From positions 1-64,000 of the forward strand of contig NZ_AOIJ01000049.1 in NCBI RefSeq assembly GCF_000337175.1: 64,000 bases of DNA, written 5' to 3'. Made by a program: the position numbers and the translations under genes. The notes under the pieces are model-generated. The model was not told the DNA's origin, ran no database searches, and saw nothing but the letters and a program-made list of their open reading frames with translations. This document shows, one piece after another, positions 2,043 to 18,341 of this stretch. This DNA comes from Natrinema gari JCM 14663 (GTDB taxonomy: Archaea; Halobacteriota; Halobacteria; Halobacteriales; Natrialbaceae). Within the stretch, counting starts at the first letter, position 1, and the number at the start of each line of letters is the position of its first letter.

Positions 2043-2051
2043 TGTCGGCGG

Positions 2052-3788
2052 TTAGATCGTCCGGAGAATCGTATCCAGCAGCGTTTCGTTCCAGTCCTGA
2101 GAGAGCTCCCAGAACATCACGCCACCCATGCCGCGTTCCTTGGCGAACTCGACTTTCGCCTCGATGGCCTGCTCGTCGTCGTAACTGATGAAGATTCCCT
2201 CGTCGTCGTTGACGAGGTACGGGACTTCACCCATGTCGTGACGGTCGACTTCCCACTCGGATTCGTCCCGTAGGTTCTCCTCGATATCGCCGAAGTCGAA
2301 CGAGCCGGTCGGGTCCGCGCCGTCCTCGAGGAGGTGGTGCCAGGTTCCCTCGGGCAGTCCCGAGTACCGCGAGCCGAGTTCGGGCGACTGCCACTCGCCG
2401 ACGGTAAAGCCGCGGCCGTAGAACGGCATTCCGAGTACGAGTTCGCCGTACTCGGCGGGATCGGCGGGCGGATACTGCCACTGGTTCGGCCAGTAGCCCT
2501 CCTCGCCGTGATCGCCGGCCCACAGCTTGTCGATGGAGTACTCCGCCCAGTACTGTTCGCCGTCGGGGTAGACATCGCGGTCGTTCGTCGGATGCGTGTC
2601 GGGACCGTACAGCGGCGCGTTCAGACCGATCGTGGTCATCCACTTGCCGGTGAAGTCGTAGGCCATGACGTACACCGAGTCACAGATCTCGCCGATCCGA
2701 TCGTGGCGAAGCCCACCGGCGTTCCAGTCGGAGCCGCCGTTGGCGACCGACAGGTAGTAGTGCTGGCCGTCCTCCTCACCCGCCTGATCGAGGTGTGTGC
2801 GCAGTTCCTCGAGCAACAGGACGTGGTTCTCGTAGTCGTCGTCGTTGCCACACTGGCACTGCCCCTGTTGGGGACCGGGATGTTCCCAGTCGATGTCGAT
2901 CCCGTCGAAGTTGTACTGCCGCATTAACTCGACGCAGTTCTCTGCAAAGGTCGTCCGCAGGTCGGGATCGGCCGCAACGACGTGGAAGTTGTCCGAGAGC
3001 GTCCAGCCCCCGATCGAGAGGTGGAACCGACAGTCGGCCTCGTCCGCCAACTCGGCGAACTGCTCGAGGTTTTCCTCGTGTGTCTGGCGCGGCACGTCGA
3101 ACTCCGTCTCGTCGTTTTTCGGCGGGAAGACGTTCCCGTTCTCGTCGACTGCGATGAACGCGTACAGCATGTCGGTCACCTTGTCGAAGGGAACGTCGCT
3201 CGGGTAGTAGTCCTGCTCAGCGTTTGCCTTCCAGCCCGGGTAGTAGCCGACGACTTTGAACTCGTCGTCCGGCCCCTCGACCTCGTCCTGGACGGTGACG
3301 TCCAGACGAGCGGTGTCGGTTTTGCCGTCGGCATCGGTGACGGTCAGCTCGACGGTGTAGTCGCCCGTCTCGTCGAACGTGTGCGTGACAACCTCGCCGG
3401 TGGCTTCGGTCCCGTCGCCGAACGCCCACGCGTAGGCGTCGATCGTACCCGTCGACTCGCCCCCATCGAACTCGACGGTCTCGCCGATCTCGATGCGGGA
3501 CGCGCTTGCGGTAATGCGTGCGGACAGGGCCGGCGGCTCGGGCCCGGACGAGTCGACCTCGTCCCACGGCCCCCATTCGCCGCCGTCGCCCGGCTCGTCG
3601 CCGCGGGTCCACCAGTTCGCCTCCCAGACGGCACCGTCGTGGACGACGCGGTCACCGTCCGTGTAGGCGGTGTCCGGGTCCCACTCCGGATACTCCTGGG
3701 CCGTCGCCACCGACCCCGCTCCGAGGCCGGCCAGCAGGGCGGATATTTTCGATGCGGTGCTCAGTACGTTTCGTCGTGATCGTTTCAT
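2052..3788 (-). CDS. Secreted GH18 chitinase (second of three)
   Basis: A 578-residue endo- or processive chitinase acting outside the cell. The start at MKRSRRNVLS (ATG 3786-3788) is chosen because it gives a clean Tat signal; an upstream in-frame ATG would add 28 low-complexity residues. Order: Tat signal 1-30, CBM5/12-like module about 33-76, PKD domain about 87-166 (WAFGDGTEATGE), GH18 catalytic domain about 176-578. The GH18 hallmarks are intact: LSIGGW (257-262), FDGIDIDWE (294-302) with E302 as proton donor, MAYDF, MPFYGRGF, and a C-terminal MFWELSQDW. The MPFYGRGF segment is typical of chitinases with an inserted alpha/beta domain, which deepens the cleft. It lies between the other two chitinases on one strand, with gaps of 91 and 9 bases. 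Confidence 0.95.
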   Translation of the reverse strand: MKRSRRNVLSTASKISALLAGLGAGSVATAQEYPEWDPDTAYTDGDRVVHDGAVWEANWWTRGDEPGDGGEWGPWDEVDSSGPEPPALSARITASASRIEIGETVEFDGGESTGTIDAYAWAFGDGTEATGEVVTHTFDETGDYTVELTVTDADGKTDTARLDVTVQDEVEGPDDEFKVVGYYPGWKANAEQDYYPSDVPFDKVTDMLYAFIAVDENGNVFPPKNDETEFDVPRQTHEENLEQFAELADEADCRFHLSIGGWTLSDNFHVVAADPDLRTTFAENCVELMRQYNFDGIDIDWEHPGPQQGQCQCGNDDDYENHVLLLEELRTHLDQAGEEDGQHYYLSVANGGSDWNAGGLRHDRIGEICDSVYVMAYDFTGKWMTTIGLNAPLYGPDTHPTNDRDVYPDGEQYWAEYSIDKLWAGDHGEEGYWPNQWQYPPADPAEYGELVLGMPFYGRGFTVGEWQSPELGSRYSGLPEGTWHHLLEDGADPTGSFDFGDIEENLRDESEWEVDRHDMGEVPYLVNDDEGIFISYDDEQAIEAKVEFAKERGMGGVMFWELSQDWNETLLDTILRTI

Positions 3789-3879
3789 CGGTTGTGGGTA
3801 TGCGTGTCGTTTGATCGTCGGTGCTGCTGCTGCTCGAGCGGCTCCCCGACCGTCGCCGGCGCGGGCCCGCAACCGTCGG

Positions 3880-5682
3880 TTAGCCGTTGAGCGTCGTCCA
3901 GAGCGTCGTGATGAGATCGCCCTCGTAGGTGTCGCCGCTGATGGCCCACAGCATCGTCCCGCCGTAGGGTGAGTCCCTGAGCCAGTCCATCTTCGCTTCC
4001 ATCGACTGCTCGGTTTCGTGGGAGATCATCAGCCGCTTCTCGTCGTTCCAGCTCCAGGCGGCGACCGCGTCCTCGTCGAAGTACGTCTCCCAACCGGGGC
4101 CGTCGAGATCGACCGGGTTGCTCCCGCCCCGGCCGTCGGAGCCGAGGTCGAACCACTCCCAAACGCCCGCATAGCTGGTCCCCATTGACGGGTCCCAGCT
4201 CGGGTACGATCCCTCGCCGCTGGCGTCGCGACCGTCGCCCTTGTACTTCTGGAAGAGACCGTCGTCCGCCCCGGTGCCGAAGTCACCCTCTGGCGGCTGG
4301 ACATCGGTCCAGCTTCGTCCATAGAACGGGACCGCCATGTTGAGCTGGCCGGGGTCCCAGCCCTGCTCGGCCCAGTACTCGAGGGCGGACTGAGCGTTCC
4401 AGATGTCCGAGTCCGCGTACGGGTCGTCGGGGTTCTCCTTCAGCGGCGCGTGATGGCCGGTCGTTTCGCTCCAGATGCCCCGATAATCGAAGGTCATCAC
4501 CTGGGCGAAATCGAGGATGTCCGAGAGTTCGTCGTGCTCGAGGCCGTCGTTGCCCGCGGTCTTCCCCTCGACGATTTCGGGGTTGGGGCTGACGGCGGCG
4601 GAGAGCTCGTAGGGCTCGTCGCGCTCGGGATCGGCCTCCGCGGCCGCGTCGAGTTGCTCGCGGACTTCCCGACACAGGAGCGTAAAGCGTTCCTGGTCGC
4701 CTTCGCGGACGGCGTTGTCGACGTCACAGACGGGATCGTCCGCGGTACAGCCGCCGCCGCCGGGGAACTCCCAATCGATATCGATCCCGTCGAGGTTCGC
4801 TTTCTCGACGAGATCGACGCAGTTGCTGGCGAAGCGCTCTCGCTTTTCCTGGGTGAGCGCAGCGTCGGAGAAGTTCTCCGAGTCGCCCCAGCCGCCGATC
4901 GAGAGGACGAACTTGGTGTCGTCCCGTTCGGCGGCGTATCCCGCGAACGTCTTGCCGCGGTCCGGCCCTTGCCAGTCCTTCTCGGCATAGAACATCTGTT
5001 GCCCGTAGCTGTCGCCCACGAGGTTGATGGAGCCGTCCGCCTCGGGCCGGGCGAACGCGTACTGGACATGTGTGACCTTGTCGAAGGGGATGTCGCCCGG
5101 GACGTAGTCCCGGTCGTACTGGGCCCACTGCCGGTAGTACGCGATGACCCGGTTCTCGTGTGCGGACGGGCGGCCGGCGGTAATCGTGATCGTGTGCGTG
5201 TCGGTCTTCCCGTCGGCGGTTTCGACCGTCAGCGTCACGTCGTACTGTCCCGTGTCGAACGCACGGGTGACGGTTTCCCCTGACGCGGTCGTGCCGTCGC
5301 CGAACGCCCACTCGTAGGACTCGATTTTCCCCTCCGAATCGCTGGCGTCGAACGTGACTTCGGCGCCCGGATCGGGGAACTGCGTGCTGACGGAGAACTG
5401 CGCGGTTGGTCCGCTCTCGCCGCCGTCCCCGTTGTCCCCGTCGTTTTCCTCGATCTGGTCCCACGGGCCCCACTCGTCGGCCCCGGGTTCGTCGCCCCGT
5501 GTCCACCACTGGGCCTCCCAGACGTAGCCGTCGTAAACGACCCGATCGCCGCTCGTGTAGACGGTCTCGGGGTCCCATTCGGGATGTTCTTGTGCCGCCG
5601 CTGCCGTGCTCGCACCGATGCTCGCCAGCAACGCGGACAGTTTCGTCGCGTTCTTGAGTACGGTTCGTCGTGTTCGTTTCAT
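3880..5682 (-). CDS. Secreted GH18 chitinase (first of three)
   Basis: A 600-residue secreted chitinase and the first gene of the chitinase operon. The start (MKRTRRTVLK, ATG 5680-5682) gives a twin-arginine signal ending near AAAAQ (27-31); the longer reading frame upstream crosses the AT-rich promoter and is rejected. Order: CBM5/12-like module about 33-76 (WEAQWWTRG, WGPW), a Gly/Asp-rich linker (81-90), PKD domain about 91-169, GH18 catalytic domain about 175-600. Seen motifs are SIGGWGDSENF (261-271), LDGIDIDWE with E305 as proton donor, MTFDYRGIW, VPFYGRSW and a terminal GTMLWAISGD. The cysteine-bearing loop after the catalytic Glu (GGGGCTADDPVCDV) is unusual for a halophilic protein and may be disulfide bonded. 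Confidence 0.95.
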   Translation of the reverse strand: MKRTRRTVLKNATKLSALLASIGASTAAAAQEHPEWDPETVYTSGDRVVYDGYVWEAQWWTRGDEPGADEWGPWDQIEENDGDNGDGGESGPTAQFSVSTQFPDPGAEVTFDASDSEGKIESYEWAFGDGTTASGETVTRAFDTGQYDVTLTVETADGKTDTHTITITAGRPSAHENRVIAYYRQWAQYDRDYVPGDIPFDKVTHVQYAFARPEADGSINLVGDSYGQQMFYAEKDWQGPDRGKTFAGYAAERDDTKFVLSIGGWGDSENFSDAALTQEKRERFASNCVDLVEKANLDGIDIDWEFPGGGGCTADDPVCDVDNAVREGDQERFTLLCREVREQLDAAAEADPERDEPYELSAAVSPNPEIVEGKTAGNDGLEHDELSDILDFAQVMTFDYRGIWSETTGHHAPLKENPDDPYADSDIWNAQSALEYWAEQGWDPGQLNMAVPFYGRSWTDVQPPEGDFGTGADDGLFQKYKGDGRDASGEGSYPSWDPSMGTSYAGVWEWFDLGSDGRGGSNPVDLDGPGWETYFDEDAVAAWSWNDEKRLMISHETEQSMEAKMDWLRDSPYGGTMLWAISGDTYEGDLITTLWTTLNG

Positions 5683-6043: not shown

Positions 6044-7210
6044 CTACGCCGTCTCGACGTGGCTGTCGGCTTCGGGGAGCGAACTCGAGTCGATCGGTGC
6101 CTCGCTGTGCTTGATGGCCCGCCCGGATTCCGCGTCGAAGAGGTGCATCTTCGACGCTGGCACGTGCATATGGAGTTGCCCGCCGGGATCGACGCCGACG
6201 TGGCCGTCGACGGTAACCGTAATCGTCTCGCCACCGACGTCCAGATAGACGTTCGTGACGTCCCCCATCGGTTCGGTGACGGTCACGTCCGTCTCGATCA
6301 GCCGGTTCGGTTCCGGGTGGGTCCCGGGGGAGTCGGTAAGCGACACGTGCTCCGGTCTGATACCGACCACGAGATCGGTACTGTCGAGTTCGTCGACCAG
6401 CGAGTCCGACAGCGGCAGCGTAAAGACCGGATGGTCGAGCGTGCCGTCCTCGAGATCGGCGTCGACTTCGAGGAAGTTCATCGGTGGGGAGCCGATGAAT
6501 CCCGCGACGAACTGGTTCGCCGGCCGGTGATAGCACTCGAGCGGGGTTCCAACCTGTTGTAACCGGCCGTCGTTGAGGATGACGATCCGATCGCCCATCG
6601 TCATCGCCTCCGTCTGATCGTGCGTGACGTACACCGTCGTCACGCCCAACTCCGTTTGCAGTTGCTGGAGTTCCGTCCGCATCTGTGCACGCAGTTTCGC
6701 GTCGAGGTTCGAGAGCGGTTCGTCCATCAAGAAGAGTTCCGGATCGCGGACGATCGCCCGCCCGAGCGCGACTCGCTGTTGTTGTCCGCCGGAGAGTTCG
6801 CCGGGTTTGTCGTCGAGGAGGTCGACGATATCCATCATTTCAGCGGCGGTTTCGACCTGGTCGTCGATCTCGGCGGCCGAGAGATCCGTCGACATCTTCA
6901 GCCCGAACGCGATGTTCTCCCGGGCGGTCATATGCGGATAGAGCGCGTAGTTCTGGAACACCATCGCGATATCCCTGTCTTTTGGCTTTTCGTCCGTTAC
7001 GGCGGTTTCGTCGAACCGGATCGAGCCGCTCGTGACGGTCTCGAGGCCGGCGATACAGCGGAGCGTCGTCGACTTGCCACAGCCGGACGGCCCCACGAAG
7101 ACGACGAACTCGCCGTCCTCGAGTTGGAGATCGAGCGACTCGACGGCTTGGATCGGTCCGTTCGGCGTACGGTACTCTTTGGTCAGACCATCTATGTCAA
7201 TCCGGCCCAT
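6044..7210 (-). CDS. Sugar ABC transporter ATPase (MalK/UgpC/MsmX type)
   Basis: The 388-residue cytoplasmic ATPase that should power the CUT1-type importer encoded at 8988-12205. Nucleotide-binding motifs are complete: Walker [10 protein letters not shown] (40-48), Q-loop near Q86, signature LSGGQQQR (139-146), Walker B LFLMDEP (159-165) with catalytic E164, D-loop SNLDAKL, and switch H197 in YVTHDQT. The C-terminal 150 residues are the OB-like regulatory domain of this subfamily ([24 protein letters not shown]). It is separated from its permeases by the GH3 gene on the opposite strand. Its start lies 126 bases from the GH3 start, across a shared divergent control region. Such ATPases often serve several sugar importers, so a wider role is possible. 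Confidence 0.95.
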
Positions 7211-7336: not shown

Positions 7337-8914
7337 ATGCTGACAGCAGACGGACGCGAGTTGACTCTCGCGACGAAAGTCGGCCAACTGTTCGTCGTCG
7401 GGTTCGACGGGACGGCCCCGACCGACGACCTTCGAACGTTGATCACCGACCGACAGTGTGGCAACGTCGTCTACTTCAGTCGGAATATCGAGACCCCCGA
7501 CCAGGTCGCGACGCTAACCGACCGCCTACGGCGACTGATACTCGAAGAGACTGGGACCCCGCCGTTCGTGATGGCCGACCAGGAAGGCGGGGTGGTCTCT
7601 CGCCTCGGCTGGGGGACGGCACTGCCGAGTCAGATGTGTCTCGGTGCAAGCGCCGACCCCGACCTCGCGCGTGCCGGCGGCGAGGCCGTCGCCGCCGAAC
7701 TGGCAGCCCTCGGTATCAACGTCAATCTGGCTCCGGTACTCGACGTCAACAACAACCCACGGAATCCGGTGATCGGCGTCCGCTCGTTCGGCGAGGACCC
7801 CGACCTGGTGGGCGACCTCGGGGCCGAACTGGCGATGGGGATGCAATCCAACGGGGTCATCGCCTGCGGGAAACACTTCCCGGGCCACGGCGACACGAGT
7901 GCCGACTCCCATCACGAACTGCCGGTCGTCGAACACGACCGCGAGCGACTCGAGGCCGTGGAGTTCGCGCCGTTCCGGCGCGCGATCGATGCCGGTATCG
8001 ACGCGATTATGACGACACACGTGTCGTTCCCGGCGATCGCGGACTCCCCGTCGACCCCGGCGACGGTGTCGCCTGCCGTCCAACGGCGACTGCTCCGCGA
8101 CGAACTCGGCTTCGACGGGCTCATCGTGACCGACGGGATGGAAATGCGTGCTCTCGCGGAGACGGTCGGCACGGCGGAAGGCTGCGTCCGGGCGCTCGAG
8201 GTGGGCTGTGATCTACTGCTCGTCTGTCACACGCCCGAAACGCAGGCGGATGCGATCGACGCCGTGATCGACGCGGTCGAATCGGGTCGGCTCGACGAAG
8301 CGACGATCGACGCGGCCGTCGAGCGGATTCTTCGGTTCAAACGCCGCCGGCTGAGCGCCTCGAGTCCGCCGTCAGCCGCGCGCTGGGAGGAGACGGCCGA
8401 CCGGTCCCGCGAGGTCGGCAGGACGATCGCCGCCCGCGGGATCACGCTCGTCCGGGACCGAGACGACACGCTCCCGTTGACGACCGAGCGGCCGCTTCAG
8501 CTGGTCGGGTCGTCGGGGGGTCGGACGTCGCCGGCGGAGGACGACGACTTCGAGCCGACGCTGCTCGCCGACTCGCTCGCGGCCGCCGGGTTCGATGTCA
8601 CCTGCCACGAGGTCGCCGACCGGACCGAGCTGCCGTCGTTCGACGCTGGGACACAGGTGATCGCCACCGTCGACGGCGCGATGGCCGACGACTCGCGGGC
8701 GGCCGTGGTCCGGACGCTCGACGACCGCAGACGACGGTTCGCGGCGGTCGTCGTTCGCAACCCCTACGACCTGTCGGCAGTTCCCGATGTCTCGACCGCG
8801 GTGTCGACGTACGATTATACGCGGGCGACGCGCACTGCGCTCTGCGAGGTCCTGCTCGGCGAGGCGACGGCGACCGGTCGGCTGCCGGTCACCGTCCCCG
8901 AATTCGCGGACTGA
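7337..8914 (+). CDS. GH3 beta-N-acetylglucosaminidase (NagZ-like), cytoplasmic
   Basis: A 525-residue glycoside hydrolase family 3 protein. The N-terminal TIM barrel (about 10-340) has the NagZ-type motif KHFPGHGDTSADSHHE (179-194), whose His/Asp pair serves as general acid/base in N-acetylglucosaminidases. The nucleophile is D266 in IVTDGMEM, and substrate contacts lie in DQEGG (81-85). Residues from about 370 on form a second alpha/beta domain as in two-domain GH3 enzymes. There is no signal peptide, so it should cleave imported chitooligosaccharides to GlcNAc inside the cell. Some GH3 enzymes with this His/Asp motif are GlcNAc phosphorylases. That would yield GlcNAc-1-phosphate and cannot be excluded from sequence. 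It is divergent from the ABC ATPase gene and convergent with the permease genes. Confidence 0.92.
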   Translation: MLTADGRELTLATKVGQLFVVGFDGTAPTDDLRTLITDRQCGNVVYFSRNIETPDQVATLTDRLRRLILEETGTPPFVMADQEGGVVSRLGWGTALPSQMCLGASADPDLARAGGEAVAAELAALGINVNLAPVLDVNNNPRNPVIGVRSFGEDPDLVGDLGAELAMGMQSNGVIACGKHFPGHGDTSADSHHELPVVEHDRERLEAVEFAPFRRAIDAGIDAIMTTHVSFPAIADSPSTPATVSPAVQRRLLRDELGFDGLIVTDGMEMRALAETVGTAEGCVRALEVGCDLLLVCHTPETQADAIDAVIDAVESGRLDEATIDAAVERILRFKRRRLSASSPPSAARWEETADRSREVGRTIAARGITLVRDRDDTLPLTTERPLQLVGSSGGRTSPAEDDDFEPTLLADSLAAAGFDVTCHEVADRTELPSFDAGTQVIATVDGAMADDSRAAVVRTLDDRRRRFAAVVVRNPYDLSAVPDVSTAVSTYDYTRATRTALCEVLLGEATATGRLPVTVPEFAD

Positions 8915-8987: not shown

Positions 8988-9863
8988 CTACTGTTTCACG
9001 CCGCCTTCCGTCAGCCCCTTGACGATCGGCTTCTGGAACAGCACGAACAGCAGCAGAATCGGGACCGTCGCGACCGTCGATGCGGCCATCATCTCGCCCC
9101 AGTAGTTCTGGTCGCGTTCCATGAACTGCTGGATCCCGATCGAGAGCGGCGTCACGTCGCCCCTCGCCATGACCGACGCGAACAACACCTCGTTGAACGC
9201 GACCAGGAACACGAACATCCCCGTCGCGGCGATGCCCGGCGCTGCAAGGGGTAAGACGATCCGGACCAACGCCTGAAACCGGGTACAGCCGTCGACGCGG
9301 GCCGCCTCCTCGAGCGAGGCGGGGATCGTGTCGAAAAAGCCCCGAAGCATCCAGATCGCGAACGGGACGGCGAACGTGGTGTAGACGAAGATGATCCCCT
9401 GATAGGTGTTGATAAGCTGGAGCCCGACGGTGTCGTGGAACGTCCGGAACAGCATGAACATCGGCAACAGGATCAGGATTCCGGGGATCAGCTGCGTCCC
9501 GATGAGCGATGCACCGACGTATCGCCGGCCCGGGAACCGATATCGTGAGAACGCGTACCCGCCGAGACAGGCGATACAGAGCGCGATGGCCGTCGTCACG
9601 CTCGCGATGATGAGGCTGTTCATGAAGTACTCGATCAGATCGACGCGAGACCACATGTCGATGTAGTTCTGATAGTGAAACGATATCTCGGTGAAGCTCG
9701 GATCGCCACCGACGATCTCGAACCGGGTTCGGAGGCTGTTGAACACCATCCAGTAAATGGGGAACAGCGCCCAGATCAGGATCGTCAGCAAGAGCCCCTT
9801 GGAAGCGAGCGCGAACAGTCGGTCCGTGGTCGCTTCGGAGAGCGCCCACTCGTCGGGCATCAT
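8988..9863 (-). CDS. Sugar ABC transporter permease (MalG/UgpE type)
   Basis: A 291-residue integral membrane subunit with six predicted spanning segments (e.g. LLLTILIWALFPIYWMVF near the N-terminus, TTAIALCIACLGGYAF, LIGTQLIPGILILLPMFMLF). The cytoplasmic EAA loop that docks the ATPase reads EEAARVDGCTRFQALVRIVL, with the invariant Gly, and is followed by LPLAAPG. It forms the channel with the permease encoded just upstream. The two genes overlap by four bases (ATGA, 9860-9863), which implies translational coupling. The family imports di- and oligosaccharides. The genomic setting suggests chitobiose or short chitooligosaccharides. Confidence 0.94.
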   Translation of the reverse strand: MMPDEWALSEATTDRLFALASKGLLLTILIWALFPIYWMVFNSLRTRFEIVGGDPSFTEISFHYQNYIDMWSRVDLIEYFMNSLIIASVTTAIALCIACLGGYAFSRYRFPGRRYVGASLIGTQLIPGILILLPMFMLFRTFHDTVGLQLINTYQGIIFVYTTFAVPFAIWMLRGFFDTIPASLEEAARVDGCTRFQALVRIVLPLAAPGIAATGMFVFLVAFNEVLFASVMARGDVTPLSIGIQQFMERDQNYWGEMMAASTVATVPILLLFVLFQKPIVKGLTEGGVKQ

Positions 9864-10846
9864 TGGTCGTCCTCCTCGAAATCGCTTCGAATGAATCGAC
9901 GGTAGTAGATCGTCGCGAGCACCATCGCGACGACGAACAGTCCGACGCTCATTGCGGCCCCGCGGCCGAACGCGAACGCCCTGAACGAGAAGTTATAGAT
10001 GTACACCATCGTCACCTCGACCGACGACGGTGGACTCCCGCCGAACATCACGTACGGCGTCGTAAAGTCGATCATCGTCCAGAGCAACATGAGCAGGACG
10101 ACCACCCCGGAAACGGGTTTGAGCTGTGGCAACGTCACGTACCGAAACTTGCCCCAGCGGCCGGCCCCGTCGATCGCAGCGGCCTCGTAGAGTTGCTGGG
10201 GAATGGACTGGAGGCCGGCATAGAGCATGATCATCACCCAGGGGAACTGCAGCCAGACGTGTGCGATGGTCATCGACCACAGTGCCCGATCGCCGAGTAA
10301 CCAGAACACGGGCTCGTCGAGGAGTCCGACGGACATGAGCGCGTGGTTGATGATGCCGGATTCCGAGAGGAACATCATTCGCCAGACGTTCAACGTCACG
10401 ATCGCCGGTGCGATCCACGGCAGCAACAACAGCGTTCGAACGAGGAACGATCCCTTGAACCCCTGATTGAGGATCAGTGCCGCCGTCAGTCCCAACACGT
10501 AGGTCCCGACAAGCACGCCGACCGACCAGAGCACGGTCCGCGAGATCGAGTACCAGTACCGACTGCCGATGGTCGTCGTGGGATCCATCACGAAGGCGTA
10601 GTGCTCGAGGCCGACGAACGGTGCACTCGTCCAATCGGCGATGTAATTCGAGTTGACCCCCATGACGCTGATCGTCGCTCCCCACACGACGGGGATGAAG
10701 TGAACGACGAACATCATCGCCAGCGCGGGAAACAGGAGTTTGTATGCGTATTGATGCTTCTCGTCGAGTCGACTGTACAACGGGAGATACCGTCCGAGCC
10801 CCCCGTCGCTCACTCGTTCGTGTAACCGGGTGAAAACGCGTGCCAT
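9860..10846 (-). CDS. Sugar ABC transporter permease (MalF/UgpA type)
   Basis: A 328-residue membrane subunit, the larger partner of the permease pair. The N-terminal 40 residues are cytoplasmic and charged. The first span is LLFPALAMMFVVHFIPVVWG, followed by about five more. The EAA loop is YEAAAIDGAGRWGKFRYVTL, then PQLKPV. It lies between the binding-protein gene (51 bases upstream) and the second permease (four-base overlap), so binding protein, MalF-like and MalG-like genes form one operon on the minus strand. Confidence 0.94.
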   Translation of the reverse strand: MARVFTRLHERVSDGGLGRYLPLYSRLDEKHQYAYKLLFPALAMMFVVHFIPVVWGATISVMGVNSNYIADWTSAPFVGLEHYAFVMDPTTTIGSRYWYSISRTVLWSVGVLVGTYVLGLTAALILNQGFKGSFLVRTLLLLPWIAPAIVTLNVWRMMFLSESGIINHALMSVGLLDEPVFWLLGDRALWSMTIAHVWLQFPWVMIMLYAGLQSIPQQLYEAAAIDGAGRWGKFRYVTLPQLKPVSGVVVLLMLLWTMIDFTTPYVMFGGSPPSSVEVTMVYIYNFSFRAFAFGRGAAMSVGLFVVAMVLATIYYRRFIRSDFEEDDQ

Positions 10847-10897
10847 AGTGTCGTAGGTTTGTAAAGCGTGATTATTCCGTCTCCCGACCTGCGGGTA

Positions 10898-12205
10898 TCA
10901 ACCCTGTTGTGCCTGGTCGACGAGATCCTGTGCGACGCCGGCAGCCTCATCGAGGAGTTCCGCGGAGCGTCCGTCCTCCCACTCGTCCGTGACGACCTCC
11001 TCGAGCCACGTCCCGATCGTATTGGCGAGTTCGCCCTCGACTTCGCTCAGTCCGGGGATCATCGGATAATGGCGCGCGTCGGGGAGCACGTCGTCGTGGA
11101 GCGTCTGACTGAGTTCGTCGTCGAACGCGGCGTGGTCGAACGACGCCTCGACCGTCGGCAAGAGCCCGATCCGATCGGCGAACGTCGCGTTGGCGTCCGG
11201 CCGTGAGAGCCACGAAATCCACGCGGCGGCCTCTTCCTGTTTGTCCGACCACGGCCGAATACCGAGTCCCTCCATGCCGAAGAACGTCGATCGGTCGCCG
11301 GACGGCCCGGCCGGGAGTCGGCCGATCGTAAAGTCGCTCCGATCCGCCCCACCCTGTTCGACGAACTGATCGACGGGACTCAAATCCTGCATGATCGCAC
11401 TGACGTCCTCGTTGATCAACGCCCCGTCGAACTCGTCGACCCCCCACTCGGCGATCTGGGTCGGCATGACGCCCTCCTCGAGAATGAGATCCTTCCAGAA
11501 GTTCAAGGCCTCGACGCCGGCGTCGGAATTGAACTGGATCTCGTTCGTGTCCTCGTCCGCTACCCGACCGCCGTTTTGCCAGAGAAACGTGATGAACGCA
11601 CGCGGGAGTTCCCAACTGACGCCCATCATCGCATAGAGGTGTTTGTCCGGAAACGCCTCGCGGAACGCCTGCCCCTGGGTGACGAGGTCGTCCCAGTCGT
11701 CGGGCTGGCCATCGATCCCCGCTTGCTCGATGAGCGGGTCGTACTCGAGATAGCCACGCGGTCCCCAGAACCACGGGATGCCGTGAATCTTCCCCTGGTA
11801 GTCCATGATGTCGGTGACCTGATCGAAAAACGCGTTCTGATCGGGGAGCGACGCGTCCAACTCCGAGAGATCGACCCAGCCACCGGCGTTTGCCTGTTGT
11901 GGCAGGAACGTCGACGCGATGTGGTCGACGTCCGGCCCGACGCCGGACTGAATATCAGTCACCTGCGAATCCGGCACGTCGGCCCACGTCAGGAACTCGT
12001 GTTCGACTTCGATTCCGGTCTCCGCTTCGAAAGCATCGGACTGCTCCTCGAGCCAGTCCGACTGGGATTCCTGACCGATATAGCGTGCCCGGACCGCATC
12101 TCCGGCACCACCGGAGCCGGTGAACCCGTCCAGACACCCCGCGAGTCCGAGTGTCGTCGTTGCGCCAGCAGACTGCAGTAGCTTGCGTCGGGAGCGGTCG
12201 TTCAT
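10898..12205 (-). CDS. Sugar-binding lipoprotein of the ABC importer (SBP family 1)
   Basis: A 435-residue extracellular solute-binding protein of the MalE/UgpB class. The start MNDRSRRKLLQ (ATG 12203-12205) is preferred over an ATG 27 bases upstream because the TATA element at 12241-12248 places the transcript start near 12218. The N-terminus is a Tat lipoprotein signal: SRRKLLQ, then LAGC with lipid-anchored C24, then a Gly-rich linker. The body has the alternating two-lobe pattern of the family (YIGQESQSDW, HEFLTWADVP, GIPWFWGPRG, EAAAWISWLS). It should capture chitin fragments released by the secreted chitinases and pass them to the two permeases encoded downstream. Confidence 0.93.
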   Translation of the reverse strand: MNDRSRRKLLQSAGATTTLGLAGCLDGFTGSGGAGDAVRARYIGQESQSDWLEEQSDAFEAETGIEVEHEFLTWADVPDSQVTDIQSGVGPDVDHIASTFLPQQANAGGWVDLSELDASLPDQNAFFDQVTDIMDYQGKIHGIPWFWGPRGYLEYDPLIEQAGIDGQPDDWDDLVTQGQAFREAFPDKHLYAMMGVSWELPRAFITFLWQNGGRVADEDTNEIQFNSDAGVEALNFWKDLILEEGVMPTQIAEWGVDEFDGALINEDVSAIMQDLSPVDQFVEQGGADRSDFTIGRLPAGPSGDRSTFFGMEGLGIRPWSDKQEEAAAWISWLSRPDANATFADRIGLLPTVEASFDHAAFDDELSQTLHDDVLPDARHYPMIPGLSEVEGELANTIGTWLEEVVTDEWEDGRSAELLDEAAGVAQDLVDQAQQG

Positions 12206-12218
12206 CTCATTCGTACCC

Positions 12219-12248
12219 GAACTAATATTCATGCTAATTGTATATATA
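12219..12248 (-). promoter_or_regulatory. Promoter of the importer operon with GAACTAA site
   Basis: TATATATA at 12241-12248 is the TATA element. The predicted start site is near 12218, leaving an 11-13-base leader. GAACTAA (12219-12225) lies between the TATA element and the start site. The same heptamer occurs in two other control regions of this island. Confidence 0.55.
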
Positions 12249-12480: not shown

Positions 12481-13632
12481 ATGAAACTGGTCGACTACGA
12501 ACTGTTCCAAGTGCCGCCCCGATGGCTTTTCCTGAAACTCGAGACGGCCGACGGATCGATCGGGTGGGGCGAACCGATCGTGGAAGGGCGAGCGAAGACC
12601 GTCCGAACCGCCGTCGACGAAATCATGGACAGCTACCTCCTCGGAACGGACCCACACCGGATCGAAGACCACTGGCAAGCGATGTATCGGGGCAGTTTCT
12701 ATCGCGGTGGGCCCGTATTGATGAGCGCCATCGCGGGCATCGATCAGGCGCTGTGGGATCTCAAAGGGCGAACGTTCGGAGCCCCGGTATACGAACTCCT
12801 GGGCGGGAAGTCACGTGACAGAATTCGGGTCTATCAGTGGATCGGTGGCGACCGAGTGGAGGAAATCGGTGCCGAAGCCGAGCAGTTGTGCGACGTCGGC
12901 TACACCGCGTTAAAGATGGATGCGGCGAACCAGATGCGACACCTCGAGCCACCGGCTGCGGTGGCCGAGGTCGTTTCGCGTGTCGAACACGTTCGTGAGA
13001 CTGTCGGTCAACACGTCGACATCGTCGTCGATTTCCGGGGGCGAATCTCCAAGTCGCTGGCGAAACGCATCGCGCCGAAACTCGAGCCGTTCGGCGTCAC
13101 GTTCATCGAGGAACCGGTGTTGCCGGAGAACCTCGAGCATTTGCCCACGCTCGCATCGCAGACGACGGTTCCGCTGGCGACGGGCGAGCGGCTCTATTCG
13201 CGGTGGGATTTCAAACCGCTGTTCGAACGGGGAGGGATCGATGTCGTGCAGCCGGACGTCTCCCATGCCGGCGGCATCTCCGAGATGGTTCGGATCGCGA
13301 ACATGGCCGAGGCACACGACGTGGCAGTGGCTCCGAACTGTCCGCTCGGACCGATCGCGCTTGCGGCCTCGTTGCAAGTGAGCGCGACCGTTCCGAACCT
13401 CTTATTTCAGGATCACGGATTCGATATCTATCCCGCCCCGAAGAGCGCGGCCGACGACTACCTCGACGACGCCTCCGTCTTCGAGTTCACCGACGGCTAT
13501 CTCGATCTGCTCGACGGCCCCGGGTTGGGTATCGAGATCGACGAGGACGCCGTCCGGGAGCGGTCCCAGCAGAACTTACACTGGCACAATCAGGTGTGGC
13601 GGCAGGCCGACGGGAGCATCACCGAGTGGTGA
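12481..13632 (+). CDS. Enolase-superfamily (DgoD-like) sugar-acid enzyme lacking both catalytic His
   Basis: A 383-residue protein of the mandelate racemase/galactonate dehydratase subgroup. The start MKLVDYELFQ is set by the TATA element 27 bases upstream. The alignment with E. coli D-galactonate dehydratase, as I remember that sequence, is close through the barrel: FIEEPVLPENLEHLPTLA, GERLYSRWDFK, QPDVSHAGGI and NCPLGPIALAA. The Mg ligands are kept (D184, E210, E236). The two residues that do acid/base chemistry in DgoD are changed: H185 of DFHGR is R186 here (DFRGR), and H285 of APHCPLGP is N286 (APNCPLGP). The fold and metal site argue for a sugar acid or amino-sugar acid substrate, but the reaction cannot be standard DgoD dehydration. 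Possible roles are an epimerisation or elimination in amino-sugar catabolism. It is convergent with the deacetylase gene. Confidence 0.82.
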   Translation: MKLVDYELFQVPPRWLFLKLETADGSIGWGEPIVEGRAKTVRTAVDEIMDSYLLGTDPHRIEDHWQAMYRGSFYRGGPVLMSAIAGIDQALWDLKGRTFGAPVYELLGGKSRDRIRVYQWIGGDRVEEIGAEAEQLCDVGYTALKMDAANQMRHLEPPAAVAEVVSRVEHVRETVGQHVDIVVDFRGRISKSLAKRIAPKLEPFGVTFIEEPVLPENLEHLPTLASQTTVPLATGERLYSRWDFKPLFERGGIDVVQPDVSHAGGISEMVRIANMAEAHDVAVAPNCPLGPIALAASLQVSATVPNLLFQDHGFDIYPAPKSAADDYLDDASVFEFTDGYLDLLDGPGLGIEIDEDAVRERSQQNLHWHNQVWRQADGSITEW

Positions 13633-13977
13633 CCCGACCGGTCTTGTTTCGCTGTCGGAAACAGCCGGTGACTGATCCGGGACTGTCGGGATGATCGCCC
13701 CGGTAGCGACCTCCCGGGAATTACGAGCATATGGATGTAATTCCTCAGTGATCCGCCGCTGTGAGAGGCCCGTATCGACGGGTAGCAGCACTTGTTTCGC
13801 ACCGCGAAACGAACCGGGACGGACCCGCGTCGGGCGAGACGGACCGCAGGGGCCGCGAGACGAGTGGCTCGAATCGGCTACCCCGAAGTCACAGTCGTCG
13901 TTCGTCGACAGCCCGATGCACCGCCGACCGGCACTCGAGCGGCGGCCCCGGTCTCGCTGTCGGTCACTCGAGTCGCC
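13633..13977. other. Convergent intergenic gap with two hairpins
   Basis: 345 bases between the 3' ends of the enolase-like and deacetylase genes. Two inverted repeats stand out: GGAATTAC (13717-13724) with GTAATTCC (13737-13744) around 12 bases, and GTTTCGC (13794-13800) with GCGAAAC (13804-13810) around 3 bases. Neither is followed by a T-run. They may end or protect transcripts from either side. I see no coding sequence. Confidence 0.45.
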
Positions 13978-14676
13978 TCACTCCAGATAAGCGCGCGTAG
14001 TCTCGTGGAACGGGCGGAACCCCTCGGCGCTGTCGACGCCGGTTTGGTTCCCGAGGACGGTGTTTTCGGCGGCGACGCCGTCCACGAGGTTGTCGAACTC
14101 CGCATCGATACCGCCGTGGGACTGGAGGAACTCCACCTGGGACTCGTGTTGTCTGATCGCGTCGGCCTTGACGTCCTCGTAGCCGGTAATATCGACGTAG
14201 ACCGACGGCTCGAATTCGGATGTCGGTTTCCCGAAGTAGTAGACGTTCTCCGGATCACAGGGGTCGGACGGCGTCTCGACGAGGGGCAACGACGCCATGT
14301 AGTAGGCGTCGGTGACCAGTCGCGACGTGACTCGGTGATCCGGGTGCATATCGTCCCGATAGTGCGTGAGGATGACATCCGGCGCGAACGTTCGAATCGT
14401 CTCGACGATCGAGAGTCGGTTCTCAAGGGAGTATTCGATGCGGCCGTCTTCGAACCCGAGGAACTCGACTTCGGCGGCACCGAGCGTCTCGCCCGACCGA
14501 CGCGCCTCGTCCTCGCGGACGGCGGCGATATCGGTCGCCGAATCGAGTGCGCCGTACTCGCCGCTGGTAAGGTGGGCGATCGTAACCGTGTCGCCTCGGT
14601 CGGCGTGTTTCGCGAGCGTCCCACCGCAAAAGATGTCGGCATCGTCCGGATGCGCAACGATGGCTAATAGCTTCAT
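13978..14676 (-). CDS. PIG-L/LmbE-family zinc deacetylase (probable GlcNAc deacetylase)
   Basis: A 232-residue cytoplasmic deacetylase. The start MKLLAIVAHPDD (ATG 14674-14676) puts the zinc motif at its usual N-terminal place; the longer frame upstream is not protein-like. The zinc site is formed by AHPDD (H9, D12) and HPDH (H111-H114, with H114 as third ligand), and D11 is the likely general base. IFCGGTL, HLTSGEYG and HYRDDMHPDHR are family hallmarks. Members remove the acetyl group from GlcNAc-containing substrates. In archaeal chitin pathways such enzymes deacetylate diacetylchitobiose or GlcNAc. Here it would turn GlcNAc into glucosamine plus acetate, which replaces NagA in a route with no sugar kinase. 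Its 5' side faces the IclR gene, 79 bases away on the same strand. Confidence 0.9.
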   Translation of the reverse strand: MKLLAIVAHPDDADIFCGGTLAKHADRGDTVTIAHLTSGEYGALDSATDIAAVREDEARRSGETLGAAEVEFLGFEDGRIEYSLENRLSIVETIRTFAPDVILTHYRDDMHPDHRVTSRLVTDAYYMASLPLVETPSDPCDPENVYYFGKPTSEFEPSVYVDITGYEDVKADAIRQHESQVEFLQSHGGIDAEFDNLVDGVAAENTVLGNQTGVDSAEGFRPFHETTRAYLE

Positions 14677-14755: not shown

Positions 14756-15517
14756 CTACTGCTCGGCAGTCGGCTCGGCGGCGAGGTTCGACCGCAGTAA
14801 TCGGCTCGCACTGAAGAGAATCCCGGGGACGTTTTCCTCGAATCGCTTGCCGGAGAGTTCGTCGGCCCAGCCCGAGACGAAGATCGCGCCGGTCAGCGAG
14901 TCGGTCGAGAGACCGACGGCAACGCTGTTTACGCGCGAAAACTGTTCCTGTCGATCGAACGCGACTCCGCGATCGCGGATCCGATCCAATTCGGCGCGTA
15001 ACTCGGCGTCGCCCGTAATCGTGTACTCGGTCCGCGCCGGCCGCCGCTCCTCGAGCAGCGCCTCGAGCGCGTCAGCCGACTGCTCGGCGAGGATCGCCTT
15101 TCCGGCGGCACTACAGTGACGGAATCGCGTGTTGTACGCCGGGAACCCGTGCTCGGCGTGGGTCGTGGAGAGATAGACGTCGACGACCCGCCCGTCGTGT
15201 TCGATAGCGAGCCCGGCCACTTCGTTCGTCATCTCGGCGAGTTCGTCCACCGGACCGGCGGCTGCGTGGCGCAACTCCGTTAGGGACCCGGCACGAACCC
15301 CGTAGTCGAGGAACTGTACGGACGGCAGATAGCGTCCGTCGGAGCGGTCGACGTACCCGAGTTCGTGTAACGTCGACAGATGCTTGGAAACGGTGCTCTT
15401 GGTGAGCTCCGTCCGATCAGCGATGGCCGTCACACCGATCGGCTCCGGCGAGTCGGCAACGATCTCGAGGATCGTTACCGACCGAACGGTGGCGTCGATC
15501 GTGGTATCAGTCCGCAT
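14756..15517 (-). CDS. IclR-family transcriptional regulator of the chitin/glucosamine island
   Basis: A 253-residue regulator. The N-terminal winged helix-turn-helix (about 8-70) reads ATVRSVTILEIVAD, GVTAIADRTELTKSTVSKHL and LGYVDRSDGRYLP. The C-terminal effector domain (about 80-250) has CSAAGKAILAE, GVAFDRQEQ and NSVAVGL, typical of IclR ligand pockets. It sits between the deacetylase gene (same strand) and the SelA-like operon (divergent, 112 bases). It probably controls both, and perhaps the importer and chitinase promoters. In haloarchaea, IclR proteins such as XacR control sugar-acid catabolism, so a pathway intermediate such as glucosaminate or KDG is a sensible effector. That is inference. 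A TATA-like element (ctatatgg, 15539-15547 complement) lies 26 bases before its start. Confidence 0.92.
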   Translation of the reverse strand: MRTDTTIDATVRSVTILEIVADSPEPIGVTAIADRTELTKSTVSKHLSTLHELGYVDRSDGRYLPSVQFLDYGVRAGSLTELRHAAAGPVDELAEMTNEVAGLAIEHDGRVVDVYLSTTHAEHGFPAYNTRFRHCSAAGKAILAEQSADALEALLEERRPARTEYTITGDAELRAELDRIRDRGVAFDRQEQFSRVNSVAVGLSTDSLTGAIFVSGWADELSGKRFEENVPGILFSASRLLRSNLAAEPTAEQ

Positions 15518-15547: not shown

Positions 15548-15588
15548 CGTTTCCGTGTTCGAAACGTACGAAACTAATGATCAACGTA

Positions 15589-15629: not shown

Positions 15630-16844
15630 ATGAGTGACCAGACCGTATACGACGAGCTAGGAGTGCCACGTGTAGTCAACGCCGCCGGAACGAAAACACG
15701 GATCGGTGGCAGCCGGATCCGGCCGGAAGCCGTCGAGGCGATGGGACGAGCAGCGACCGAGTTCGTCAAACTCTCCGATCTCCAGGCGAAAGCGAGCGAG
15801 GTGATCGCCGACGCGACGGGAGCGGAGGCCGGCTACGTTACCTGCGGTGCGGATGCTGGACTGCTTCTCGCCGCGGCTGCGGCCCTGGCGGGCGACGATC
15901 CCGAAACGATGGACCGGTTACCGGACACCGACGGCATTCCGGACGAGATCATCATGCCCCGGACACACAGAACCGGCTACGATCACGCGTTCCGGACAGC
16001 CGGGGCAACGATCGTCGATGTCGGTACGAACGATCGCGTCCTCGGGACCGGGTCGACCGCGGTCGAGCCCTGGGAAATCGAAGCCGCCATCTCCGAGCGG
16101 ACGGCGGCGATCGGCTACGTCCAGAAACCGTACACCGAGCCCGCCCTTTCGACGGTCACGGAAATCGCGTCCACACACGACGTGCCGGTTATCGTCGACG
16201 CAGCCGCGGAGCTGCCGCCGACGGAGAACCTCTCGCGGTTCATCGAACAGGGGGCGGATATCGTGGTCTTCAGCGGTGGGAAGGCGATTCGCGGCCCGCA
16301 GACGACCGGTATCGTCGCCGGTCGGAGCGATCTCATCGAATCGATCGCGCTCCAACAGCTCGACATGCACGCTGCCGACGAGGTCTGGCAACCGCCGGCA
16401 TCGCTCGTCGACGGCGAGCGTCTCGACGGCGTCCCGCGACAGGGGATCGGTCGGCCGCTGAAAGTCGGCAAGGAGGAGCTCGTCGGTCTTCTCGTCGCCC
16501 TCGAGTCGTTCCTCGAAGCCGATCACGACGCCGCCCGGAACCGATGGCGGCGTGAGGCGGAGCGCATTACGGCCGCGCTCGAGTCCGTCGAGGGAATCGA
16601 CCTGACTCTCGATGACGACGGCGTTTCGGTCGCCCCGGAAGTCGTGATCCACGTCGATACGACCGCGGCGGCGTGCTCCGCGACGCACCTCGTTCGAACG
16701 CTCCGGACGGAATCGCCGCGAGTGTTCGTCGGGGCGGACCGCCTCGACGAAGACGTCGTCACGATCAACCCGATGTGTCTTACGGAGGCCGAACTGGACC
16801 ACGTGATCGCTCGCATCCGGTCGTCCCTGACCGCGACCCAGTAA
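15630..16844 (+). CDS. SelA-like PLP enzyme, probable D-glucosaminate ammonia-lyase
   Basis: A 404-residue fold-type I PLP enzyme of the SelA/DgaE group (PF03841-like). Seen features: an N-terminal VVNAAGTKTRIGG loop (15-27), YVTCGADAGLLLAAAA (70-84) at the phosphate site, VIVDAAAELPP with D190 for the pyridine nitrogen, and the Schiff-base lysine K218 in FSGGKAIRGPQ. It is shorter than true selenocysteine synthases and has no tRNA-binding extension. Characterised relatives include Salmonella DgaE, the D-glucosaminate-6-phosphate ammonia-lyase. In this kinase-free island the natural substrate would be unphosphorylated glucosaminate, giving 2-keto-3-deoxygluconate and ammonia. It is the first gene of an operon with RidA and a glucose-dehydrogenase-like enzyme, which supports that role. 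The substrate is inferred. Confidence 0.85.
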   Translation: MSDQTVYDELGVPRVVNAAGTKTRIGGSRIRPEAVEAMGRAATEFVKLSDLQAKASEVIADATGAEAGYVTCGADAGLLLAAAAALAGDDPETMDRLPDTDGIPDEIIMPRTHRTGYDHAFRTAGATIVDVGTNDRVLGTGSTAVEPWEIEAAISERTAAIGYVQKPYTEPALSTVTEIASTHDVPVIVDAAAELPPTENLSRFIEQGADIVVFSGGKAIRGPQTTGIVAGRSDLIESIALQQLDMHAADEVWQPPASLVDGERLDGVPRQGIGRPLKVGKEELVGLLVALESFLEADHDAARNRWRREAERITAALESVEGIDLTLDDDGVSVAPEVVIHVDTTAAACSATHLVRTLRTESPRVFVGADRLDEDVVTINPMCLTEAELDHVIARIRSSLTATQ

Positions 16845-16902
16845 CTATGATACTCGTGACCGAAACACATATGGTGGCCGTTAGACGTTATCGGAGTGGA
16901 CG

Positions 16903-17283
16903 ATGAACGAAATTGCAACCGACGAGGCACCCGCAAGTATCGGTCCGTTTTCCCAGGCGATCCGCGACGGCGACCGGCTGTACGTCTCCGGACAGGGACC
17001 GGTCGATCCCGAATCGGGAGCGATCGTCGCCGACGACATCGAGACACAGACGCATGCCGTCATGGAGAACCTCGGGACCGTTCTCGAGGCCGGACACAGC
17101 TCCCTCGAGAACATCGTCAAATCGACGGTGTTCGTCACCGACATGGACGACTACGAGGCCATCAACGCGGTGTACGAGCAGTACGTGACCGAACCGTACC
17201 CCGCCCGGAGCGCCGTTGAGGTATCGGAGTTGCCGATCGATATCGGCGTCGAAATCGAAGTGATCGCACGGGTCAACGCATGA
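16903..17283 (+). CDS. ridA: RidA/YjgF-family enamine/imine deaminase
   Basis: A 126-residue RidA protein that should form trimers with active sites at subunit interfaces. The catalytic arginine is R102 in YPARSAVEV, and the SIGPFSQAI (12-20) and YVSGQGPVD (27-35) segments are typical. The C-terminus VEIEVIARV is the last strand. RidA hydrolyses reactive enamine/imine intermediates released by PLP lyases. Its position after a SelA-like ammonia-lyase suggests it speeds release of ammonia from an amino-deoxy-sugar-acid intermediate. It starts 58 bases after the PLP enzyme gene, and its stop overlaps the next start by four bases (ATGA, 17280-17283). Confidence 0.95.
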   Translation: MNEIATDEAPASIGPFSQAIRDGDRLYVSGQGPVDPESGAIVADDIETQTHAVMENLGTVLEAGHSSLENIVKSTVFVTDMDDYEAINAVYEQYVTEPYPARSAVEVSELPIDIGVEIEVIARVNA

Positions 17284-18341
17284 AAGCGATCGCCGTCGAA
17301 CGCGGCGATTCCCGGCCGCGTCTGATAGACAAACCACGTCCCGACCCCGACCCCGGCGACGCACTGGTCCGAACGCTCAGGGTCGGGATCGACGGCACCG
17401 ATCTCGAGGTGATCGAAGGGACACACGGCGGGTTCCCCGCCGGGAGCGACCACCAGGTCCTCGGCCACGAAGCCGTCGGCGTCGTCGAAGACCCGAACGG
17501 AACCGCTCTCGAGGCGGGGCAACTCGTCGTCCCGACCGTTCGCCGTCCCCCGGGCGACGCGACCGAGTACTTCCGGCGCGGGGAGCCCGATATGGCACCG
17601 CCGGAGGAGTGCCTCGAGCGGGGGATCGATGGCGCACACGGGTACATGGCCGAGTACTTCACGAGCCCGGCGACGTACCTGGTTCCGGTTCCCGACGCGT
17701 TCGCAACGACCGGCGTCCTGATCGAACCGATGAGCAATACCGAAAAGGCACTCGAGCATGCCTACGCATCGCGCTCGGCGTTCGAGTGGCAGCGCGACGC
17801 AGCACTCGTGCTGGGGAACGGGCCACTCGGCCTGTTAACGCTGGCCAGACTGCAATCGGAGTTCGAGCGGACGTACTGTCTCGGCCGGCGCGACCGACCC
17901 GATCCGACGATCGATCTCATCGAACGATTAGGTGCGACCTACGTGGACTCGCGTGAGACTCCCGTGGCCGACGTTCCGGCGGTGTACGAGCCGATGGATC
18001 TCGTCTACGAGGCAACCGGATACGCGAGACACGCCTTCGACACGATCGACGCGCTCGATCAAAACGGCGTTGGCGTGTTGCTCGGGCTCCCGGGAGACGA
18101 CGAGTTCGACGTTGCGGGCGGTCGGCTCCACCGCAGGCTCGTACTGGGGAACAGAGCGATCATCGGCAGCGTCAACTCCCACATCGACCACTTCGACGCC
18201 GCCTGTGAGTCGCTTGCAGCGCTCCCCGACTGGTTCAGTGACGAACTGATTACGGACACCTTCGAACCGGCCGCGGTCGACGACGCGTTCTCGACGGCTC
18301 CGGATCGGATCAAGACCGTCATCGAGTTCGATTCGCGCTGA
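17280..18341 (+). CDS. gdh: Glucose-dehydrogenase-type MDR oxidoreductase (probable glucosamine dehydrogenase)
   Basis: A 353-residue zinc-dependent medium-chain dehydrogenase. It resembles Haloferax mediterranei glucose dehydrogenase closely, from memory of that sequence: MKAIAVERGD, VRTLRVGIDGTDLEV, LGHEAVGVVEDPN, VPTVRRPPGD, EKALEHAYASRSAFEW, CLGRRDRPDPTID and SVNSHIDHFDAA. The zinc site follows that enzyme (D38, H63, and E149 in LIEPMS), and the nucleotide site is VLGNGPLGLL. Haloarchaeal glucose dehydrogenases oxidise C1 of aldoses to aldonolactones with NADP. In an operon with a SelA-like lyase and RidA, the substrate is more likely glucosamine, giving glucosaminate for the lyase. Translation is coupled to RidA by a four-base overlap. 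Glucose as the true substrate cannot be excluded. Confidence 0.88.
   Translation: MKAIAVERGDSRPRLIDKPRPDPDPGDALVRTLRVGIDGTDLEVIEGTHGGFPAGSDHQVLGHEAVGVVEDPNGTALEAGQLVVPTVRRPPGDATEYFRRGEPDMAPPEECLERGIDGAHGYMAEYFTSPATYLVPVPDAFATTGVLIEPMSNTEKALEHAYASRSAFEWQRDAALVLGNGPLGLLTLARLQSEFERTYCLGRRDRPDPTIDLIERLGATYVDSRETPVADVPAVYEPMDLVYEATGYARHAFDTIDALDQNGVGVLLGLPGDDEFDVAGGRLHRRLVLGNRAIIGSVNSHIDHFDAACESLAALPDWFSDELITDTFEPAAVDDAFSTAPDRIKTVIEFDSR

Follow-up and report, generated by a model that had tools for sequence, protein, structure and literature searches.

The window analysed here is the 64,000-nucleotide stretch from positions 1 to 64,000 of contig NZ_AOIJ01000049.1 of Natrinema gari JCM 14663 (assembly GCF_000337175.1). 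It carries on the plus strand a co-directional unit of three genes, which encode a SelA/DgaE-like PLP enzyme (DGA), a small RidA protein and a glucose-1-dehydrogenase paralogue (GDH2). The features of the locus are listed in the Table. The RidA and GDH2 genes overlap in an ATGA at 17280-17283, and a gap of 58 bp separates DGA from RidA, with no overlap. A preliminary description had read a SelA-like PLP enzyme, RidA and a glucose-dehydrogenase-type gene, together with this overlap, from positions 15630-18341, and the open reading frames and the profile and structure matches confirm it. Together with the genes upstream, the operon belongs to a chitin-use locus of this Natrinema. The product of 672-2042 is chitinase-like and carries CBM5/12 and PKD domains; its GH18 match is weak (32.8 bits). 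Judging from its family, the PIG-L/CE14-type protein is likely a deacetylase of GlcNAc, diacetylchitobiose or the acid derived from GlcNAc. The Natrinema genome holds one copy of DGA.

Table. Features of the chitin-use locus in the window
Feature	Positions	Strand	Evidence or remarks
Three GH18 proteins with CBM5/12 and PKD domains	672-5682	-	
ABC transporter ATPase, MalK/MsmX type	6044-7210	-	
GH3 glycosidase, likely beta-N-acetylglucosaminidase	7337-8914	+	Pfam GH3, 326 bits
Sugar ABC transporter: binding protein and two permeases	8988-12232	-	
GAD, enolase-superfamily galactonate/gluconate dehydratase-like	12484-13632	+	PRK14017, 567 bits (cut-off 311)
GTTTC-N7-GAAAC palindrome, GAD/PIG-L intergenic	13646-13662		
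GTTTC-N7-GAAAC palindrome, GAD/PIG-L intergenic	13794-13810		
PIG-L/CE14-type deacetylase	13978-14676	-	Pfam PF02585, 117 bits
IclR-family regulator, divergent from DGA	14756-15517	-	Pfam IclR_C, HTH_IclR
GTTTC-N7-GAAAC palindrome, IclR/DGA intergenic, predicted operator	15549-15565		
DGA, SelA/DgaE-like PLP enzyme	15630-16844	+	404 aa, ORF
RidA, TIGR00004 subfamily	16903-17283	+	126 aa, ORF
GDH2, glucose-1-dehydrogenase paralogue	17280-18341	+	353 aa, ORF

We predict that DGA is a non-phosphorylated D-glucosaminate (2-amino-2-deoxyaldonate) ammonia-lyase. The protein matches Pfam SelA and is homologous over its whole length to DGL (7lc0; E 1.8e-47), so that the same elimination chemistry is expected. 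The catalytic lysine, which is Lys213 in the chain numbering of DGL and Lys-217 in PMC9529869, is Lys218 in DGA, as the preliminary description had it, and is kept in 98 of 98 haloarchaeal sequences (the window and 97 others). DGA scores 217 bits against the DgaE subfamily model TIGR01437 (cut-off 385) and 205 bits against the DgaE equivalog model (cut-off 600); it is therefore DgaE-like and lies outside the curated family.

In DGL, the phosphate of the substrate is held by Arg301, Arg332 and Arg346 (PMC9529869). DGA has Glu337, Gly368 and Met382, respectively, in these columns. The loss extends to the haloarchaeal family, in which Arg332 is replaced by Gly (97/98), Arg346 by Met (86/98) and Arg301 mostly by Glu. 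Conversely, the three true DgaE sequences compared (7lc0, Klebsiella and Lacticaseibacillus) keep all three arginines as well as the His162-His163 pair. The free acid is thus the likelier substrate of DGA. Operon partners differ too: DgaE is accompanied by a PTS and KDPG aldolase, the latter adjoining the Klebsiella and Lacticaseibacillus genes with no RidA listed, whereas the partners of DGA are RidA and GDH.

The same residues bear on a phosphorylated route, which has been predicted for Natrarchaeobius (PMC12343721) and agrees with the overall homology of DGA to DGL. An unidentified kinase would form glucosaminate-6-phosphate, and DGA would convert it directly to KDPG, like Salmonella DgaE. 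Besides the missing phosphate site, the absence of any sugar kinase gene from the locus counts against this route, and a GlcNAc-kinase-type BadF protein was not found above the cut-off in the Natrinema genome. The genome does encode a haloarchaeal KDG kinase (its gene ends at the contig end), which could phosphorylate after deamination, and a KDPG aldolase. We consider the phosphorylated route quite improbable. A DHDPS-family match, considered as a KDG aldolase, was rejected, as it looks like DapA and adjoins a DapB-like open reading frame.

A second difference from DGL concerns the His162-His163 loop. His163 of DGL is a proton donor thought to prevent release of the enamine, and the His163Ala variant accumulates and releases it (PMC9529869). 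In the alignment, the histidine pair is absent from the window DGA and from all 97 haloarchaeal homologues, and the loop of DGA is about five residues shorter and contains no His. By analogy with the His163Ala variant, the His-less DGA may need RidA. Near the His163 column most homologues have Tyr (83/97) or Phe (12/97), with the column assignment uncertain because of the gap of about five residues; subject to that uncertainty, the Tyr could serve as a substitute acid. The identity of this residue shows no clear association with RidA linkage (8 of 12 Phe and 34 of 83 Tyr sequences are RidA-linked). An AlphaFold model of DGA built with eight close sequences had a mean pLDDT of 47 and was set aside.

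Loss of His163 as the sole cause of a RidA requirement was rejected after examination of bacterial relatives. In four loci on rhizobial and roseobacter plasmids, a DgaE-like PLP gene adjoins a gene for a RidA of 145-170 aa, and the enzymes encoded beside RidA retain His162-His163. Three of these four loci also have an amidohydrolase/deacetylase and an ABC transporter, and two have an IclR regulator. A Mesorhizobium homologue (41% identity) resembles the haloarchaeal clade more closely than it does DgaE; close to the Tyr168 position it has the motif TPHN. DGA-like domain proteins occur in Sinorhizobium clusters, one of which contains phosphoenolpyruvate mutase, cytidylyltransferase and CDP-alcohol transferase genes and looks like a putative cluster for phosphonate or modified lipid biosynthesis.

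The RidA of the window scores 152.8 bits against TIGR00004 (cut-off 106.25) and 70.4 bits against the RutC model TIGR03610 (cut-off 169.1). It keeps Asn88, Glu117 and Arg102, the equivalent of the deaminase arginine Arg105 of E. coli RidA. Arg102, already noted in the preliminary description, is present in all 43 DGA-linked copies. The Natrarchaeobius homologue has been labelled a RutC repressor (PMC12343721), and the small protein would then be a RutC-type or YabJ-type regulator instead of an enzyme; given the model scores and the invariant arginine, we regard this as barely credible.

The DGA-linked RidA proteins share 69% mutual identity, compared with 44% to the other TIGR00004 protein of the Natrinema genome. 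All 43 have Phe16 at the position of Tyr17 in E. coli RidA, and the other two RidA-like proteins of the Natrinema genome (44% and 37% identity) have Tyr. Phe16 was rejected as a DGA-specific mark because it is also found in several haloarchaeal copies away from DGA. Close relatives with this Phe lie in sugar clusters of Haloferax mediterranei pHME505, Haloarcula and Halostagnicola. Each of these clusters encodes an MR/MLE (enolase-superfamily) enzyme, two also encode an SDR, and none has an annotated PLP lyase. RidA may therefore have a wider role in haloarchaeal sugar-acid catabolism. It could even be that RidA serves another sugar-acid step, such as one acting on GAD products, with its adjacency to DGA being secondary; a GAD gene does lie in the window locus. 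However, no GAD match was found in the fetched stretch of 17 of the 43 RidA-positive DGA loci, and the rhizobial and roseobacter DgaE-like genes pair with RidA with no GAD listed. This explanation appears unlikely.

GDH2 has its best match by far in the Haloferax mediterranei glucose dehydrogenase (2b5v; E 7e-143), and it scores 288 bits against Glu_dehyd_C (PF16912). Both proteins have Asp38, His63 and Glu150, which we take to be the active-site residues of the Haloferax enzyme. GDH2 differs from 2b5v by I154N, L59Q and other clade-specific changes, and it is accompanied in the Natrinema genome by a second GDH with 63% identity. All 47 DGA-linked GDH sequences fall into a separate clade (support 0.78). 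Asn154, four residues from Glu150, is present in 31 of 31 linked GDHs, whereas Asn is absent there from the 35 unlinked GDHs, drawn from genomes with and without DGA, whose residue is Ile, Val or Leu. Gln occupies the Leu59 position in 30 of the 31 linked sequences. Sixteen of the genomes compared bear DGA and were picked because they have a linked GDH; the comparison is accordingly not an independent genome-level test of co-occurrence. The separate Asn154 clade supports a dedicated substrate for GDH2. A literature search for glucosamine as a substrate of the Haloferax mediterranei GDH gave nothing usable.

The substitution near the catalytic Glu could also fit a 2-acetamido group, which would be compatible with a different order of steps: GDH2 would oxidize GlcNAc to N-acetylglucosaminate, the PIG-L enzyme would deacetylate this acid, and DGA and RidA would follow. 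The usual substrates of PIG-L/CE14 enzymes, however, are sugars or chitobiose. Oxidation before deacetylation is the step order of the Pseudoalteromonas Ong pathway (PMC9537276), but its deacetylase OngB is an unrelated D-aminoacylase-type enzyme. We find oxidation first doubtful, though it deserves to be kept in mind.

The association of the three genes was followed across haloarchaea. Of 391 Halobacteria genomes, 89 encode homologues of DGA (59-97% identity), and 97 haloarchaeal DGA loci were fetched, mostly with about 6 kb on either side. RidA is nearby in 43 of these loci, GDH in 30, and all three genes occur together in 25, which span five families. RidA lies near DGA more often than by chance, for which we estimate about 1%, given 2-3 RidA genes in 4 Mb. 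The preliminary description had suggested co-occurrence across haloarchaeal genomes as a check on its three-protein module, which would be refuted if the genes were seldom found together; their recurrence, in several gene orders, agrees with the module. RidA can be downstream and co-directional, downstream and convergent, or upstream, or it can be separated by an intervening GDH or deacetylase gene. The arrangements fall into some nine classes. On the DGA tree they require 12 changes by parsimony, compared with 33 in shuffles; the linkage is thus clustered by descent yet has been rebuilt repeatedly. In 17 further co-directional loci of several types, RidA and GDH likewise overlap by ATGA, and Natrarchaeobius chitinivorans has DGA, RidA and GDH in the same order as the window. 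A scan of genome contigs returned only seven close relatives.

Frequent as it is, this linkage does not hold everywhere. In 49 of the 97 loci, DGA has neither RidA nor GDH in its neighbourhood, and 54 are without a nearby RidA, among them some nine clusters of the chitin type that have CE14, GH3 and ABC genes. Together with the RidA relatives found away from annotated PLP lyases and the bacterial homologues that have both the His pair and RidA, these loci count against a strict pairing of DGA with RidA. On one plasmid, RidA and an Asn154-containing GDH2 adjoin a heparinase II/III gene, and DGA lies at a distance of 72 kb. The genomic context suggests that the module may also serve glycosaminoglycan-type or other amino-sugar polymers. 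In some other loci, DGA homologues themselves adjoin heparinase II/III and PL8 lyase genes. Natrarchaeobius and two genomes of the same genus have a second DGA that is nearer to the window DGA than their own operon copy is; these second copies have two palindromes upstream and no RidA or GDH nearby.

The window contains three copies of the palindrome GTTTC-N7-GAAAC, compared with 0.03 expected, and all of them are within the chitin locus. In the other operons of the same type, it lies at -73 to -84 relative to DGA, and the stretch that separates the dehydratase gene from the deacetylase gene mostly holds two or three copies. The simplest reading is that this palindrome is the putative operator of the IclR regulator, which would govern the unit through it.

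We infer the following unphosphorylated route from glucosamine through glucosaminate to 2-keto-3-deoxygluconate (KDG), in which the operon would supply the final, intracellular part of chitin use. Chitinases and the GH3 enzyme would yield GlcNAc units, which the ABC transporter would import, and the PIG-L enzyme would strip the acetate. GDH2 would then oxidize glucosamine at C1 to D-glucosaminate (or its lactone). On the PLP of DGA, abstraction of the alpha proton and elimination of the C3 hydroxyl would follow on the unphosphorylated acid, and the product would be released as the 2-amino-2,3-unsaturated enamine or its tautomerized imine. RidA would hasten hydrolysis of this imine or enamine to KDG and ammonia, and could shield other PLP enzymes. 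KDG would finally enter the semi-phosphorylative Entner-Doudoroff pathway through the KDG kinase and KDPG aldolase, whose genes lie outside the locus. C1 oxidation of glucosamine followed by PLP elimination had been put forward in the preliminary description, and it is supported by the chitin context, by the absence of a PF01182 NagB-type deaminase from the Natrinema genome and by the loss of the phosphate pocket. We judge this route to be probably correct, if only narrowly so. A more specific reading, which we offer tentatively as a possibility well short of probable, is that a SelA-like clade without the His loop and the phosphate site passes the enamine of free glucosaminate to a dedicated RidA, and that an Asn154 glucosamine dehydrogenase has co-evolved with it; deamination would then be split over two proteins, DGA and RidA.

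Much of this is already known from two systems. In Natrarchaeobius, a chitin cluster and a route through CE14, GDH, a kinase and DGA were predicted in 2025, and its clusters likewise contain chitinases, an ABC transporter, CE14, IclR, DGA, GDH, galactonate dehydratase and the "RutC" protein (PMC12343721). That work invoked an unidentified kinase, KDPG and a RidA acting as repressor; the residues analysed here instead reveal a lost phosphate pocket and point to a RidA that is probably a deaminase, and GDH stands apart as a separate clade. In the Pseudoalteromonas pathway, described in 2022, a PLP enzyme converts unphosphorylated glucosaminate to KDG, and the RidA-family protein OngD is essential in vivo for N-acetylglucosaminate use, its role having been left open (PMC9537276). 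However, OngC is of fold type III (PMC9537276), and the Natrinema lyase belongs to the SelA/DgaE family. The Ong pathway further differs in its D-aminoacylase-like deacetylase in place of PIG-L, its SSS-type transporter in place of an ABC transporter, and the origin of the acid from LPMO attack in place of GDH. Given OngD (PMC9537276) and the Natrarchaeobius cluster (PMC12343721), the earlier suggestion of a new role for RidA in amino-sugar breakdown was overstated. The new elements, drawn from sequence comparison, are the loss of the phosphate site and the His loop, the separate clade of GDH2, the wide and varied occurrence of the linkage, the link to RidA that DgaE-like operons of rhizobia and roseobacters share, and the predicted operator.

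For archaeal chitin users, these results outline how glucosamine could plausibly be taken all the way into central metabolism with no sugar-6-phosphate before deamination, and they correct the published guess of a kinase and a RutC repressor for the haloarchaeal cluster. The locus also provides a tractable system for the part played by OngD in the catabolism of oxidized amino sugars. If RidA is the obligate second half of the deamination, it would be a pathway enzyme and not a general detoxifier.
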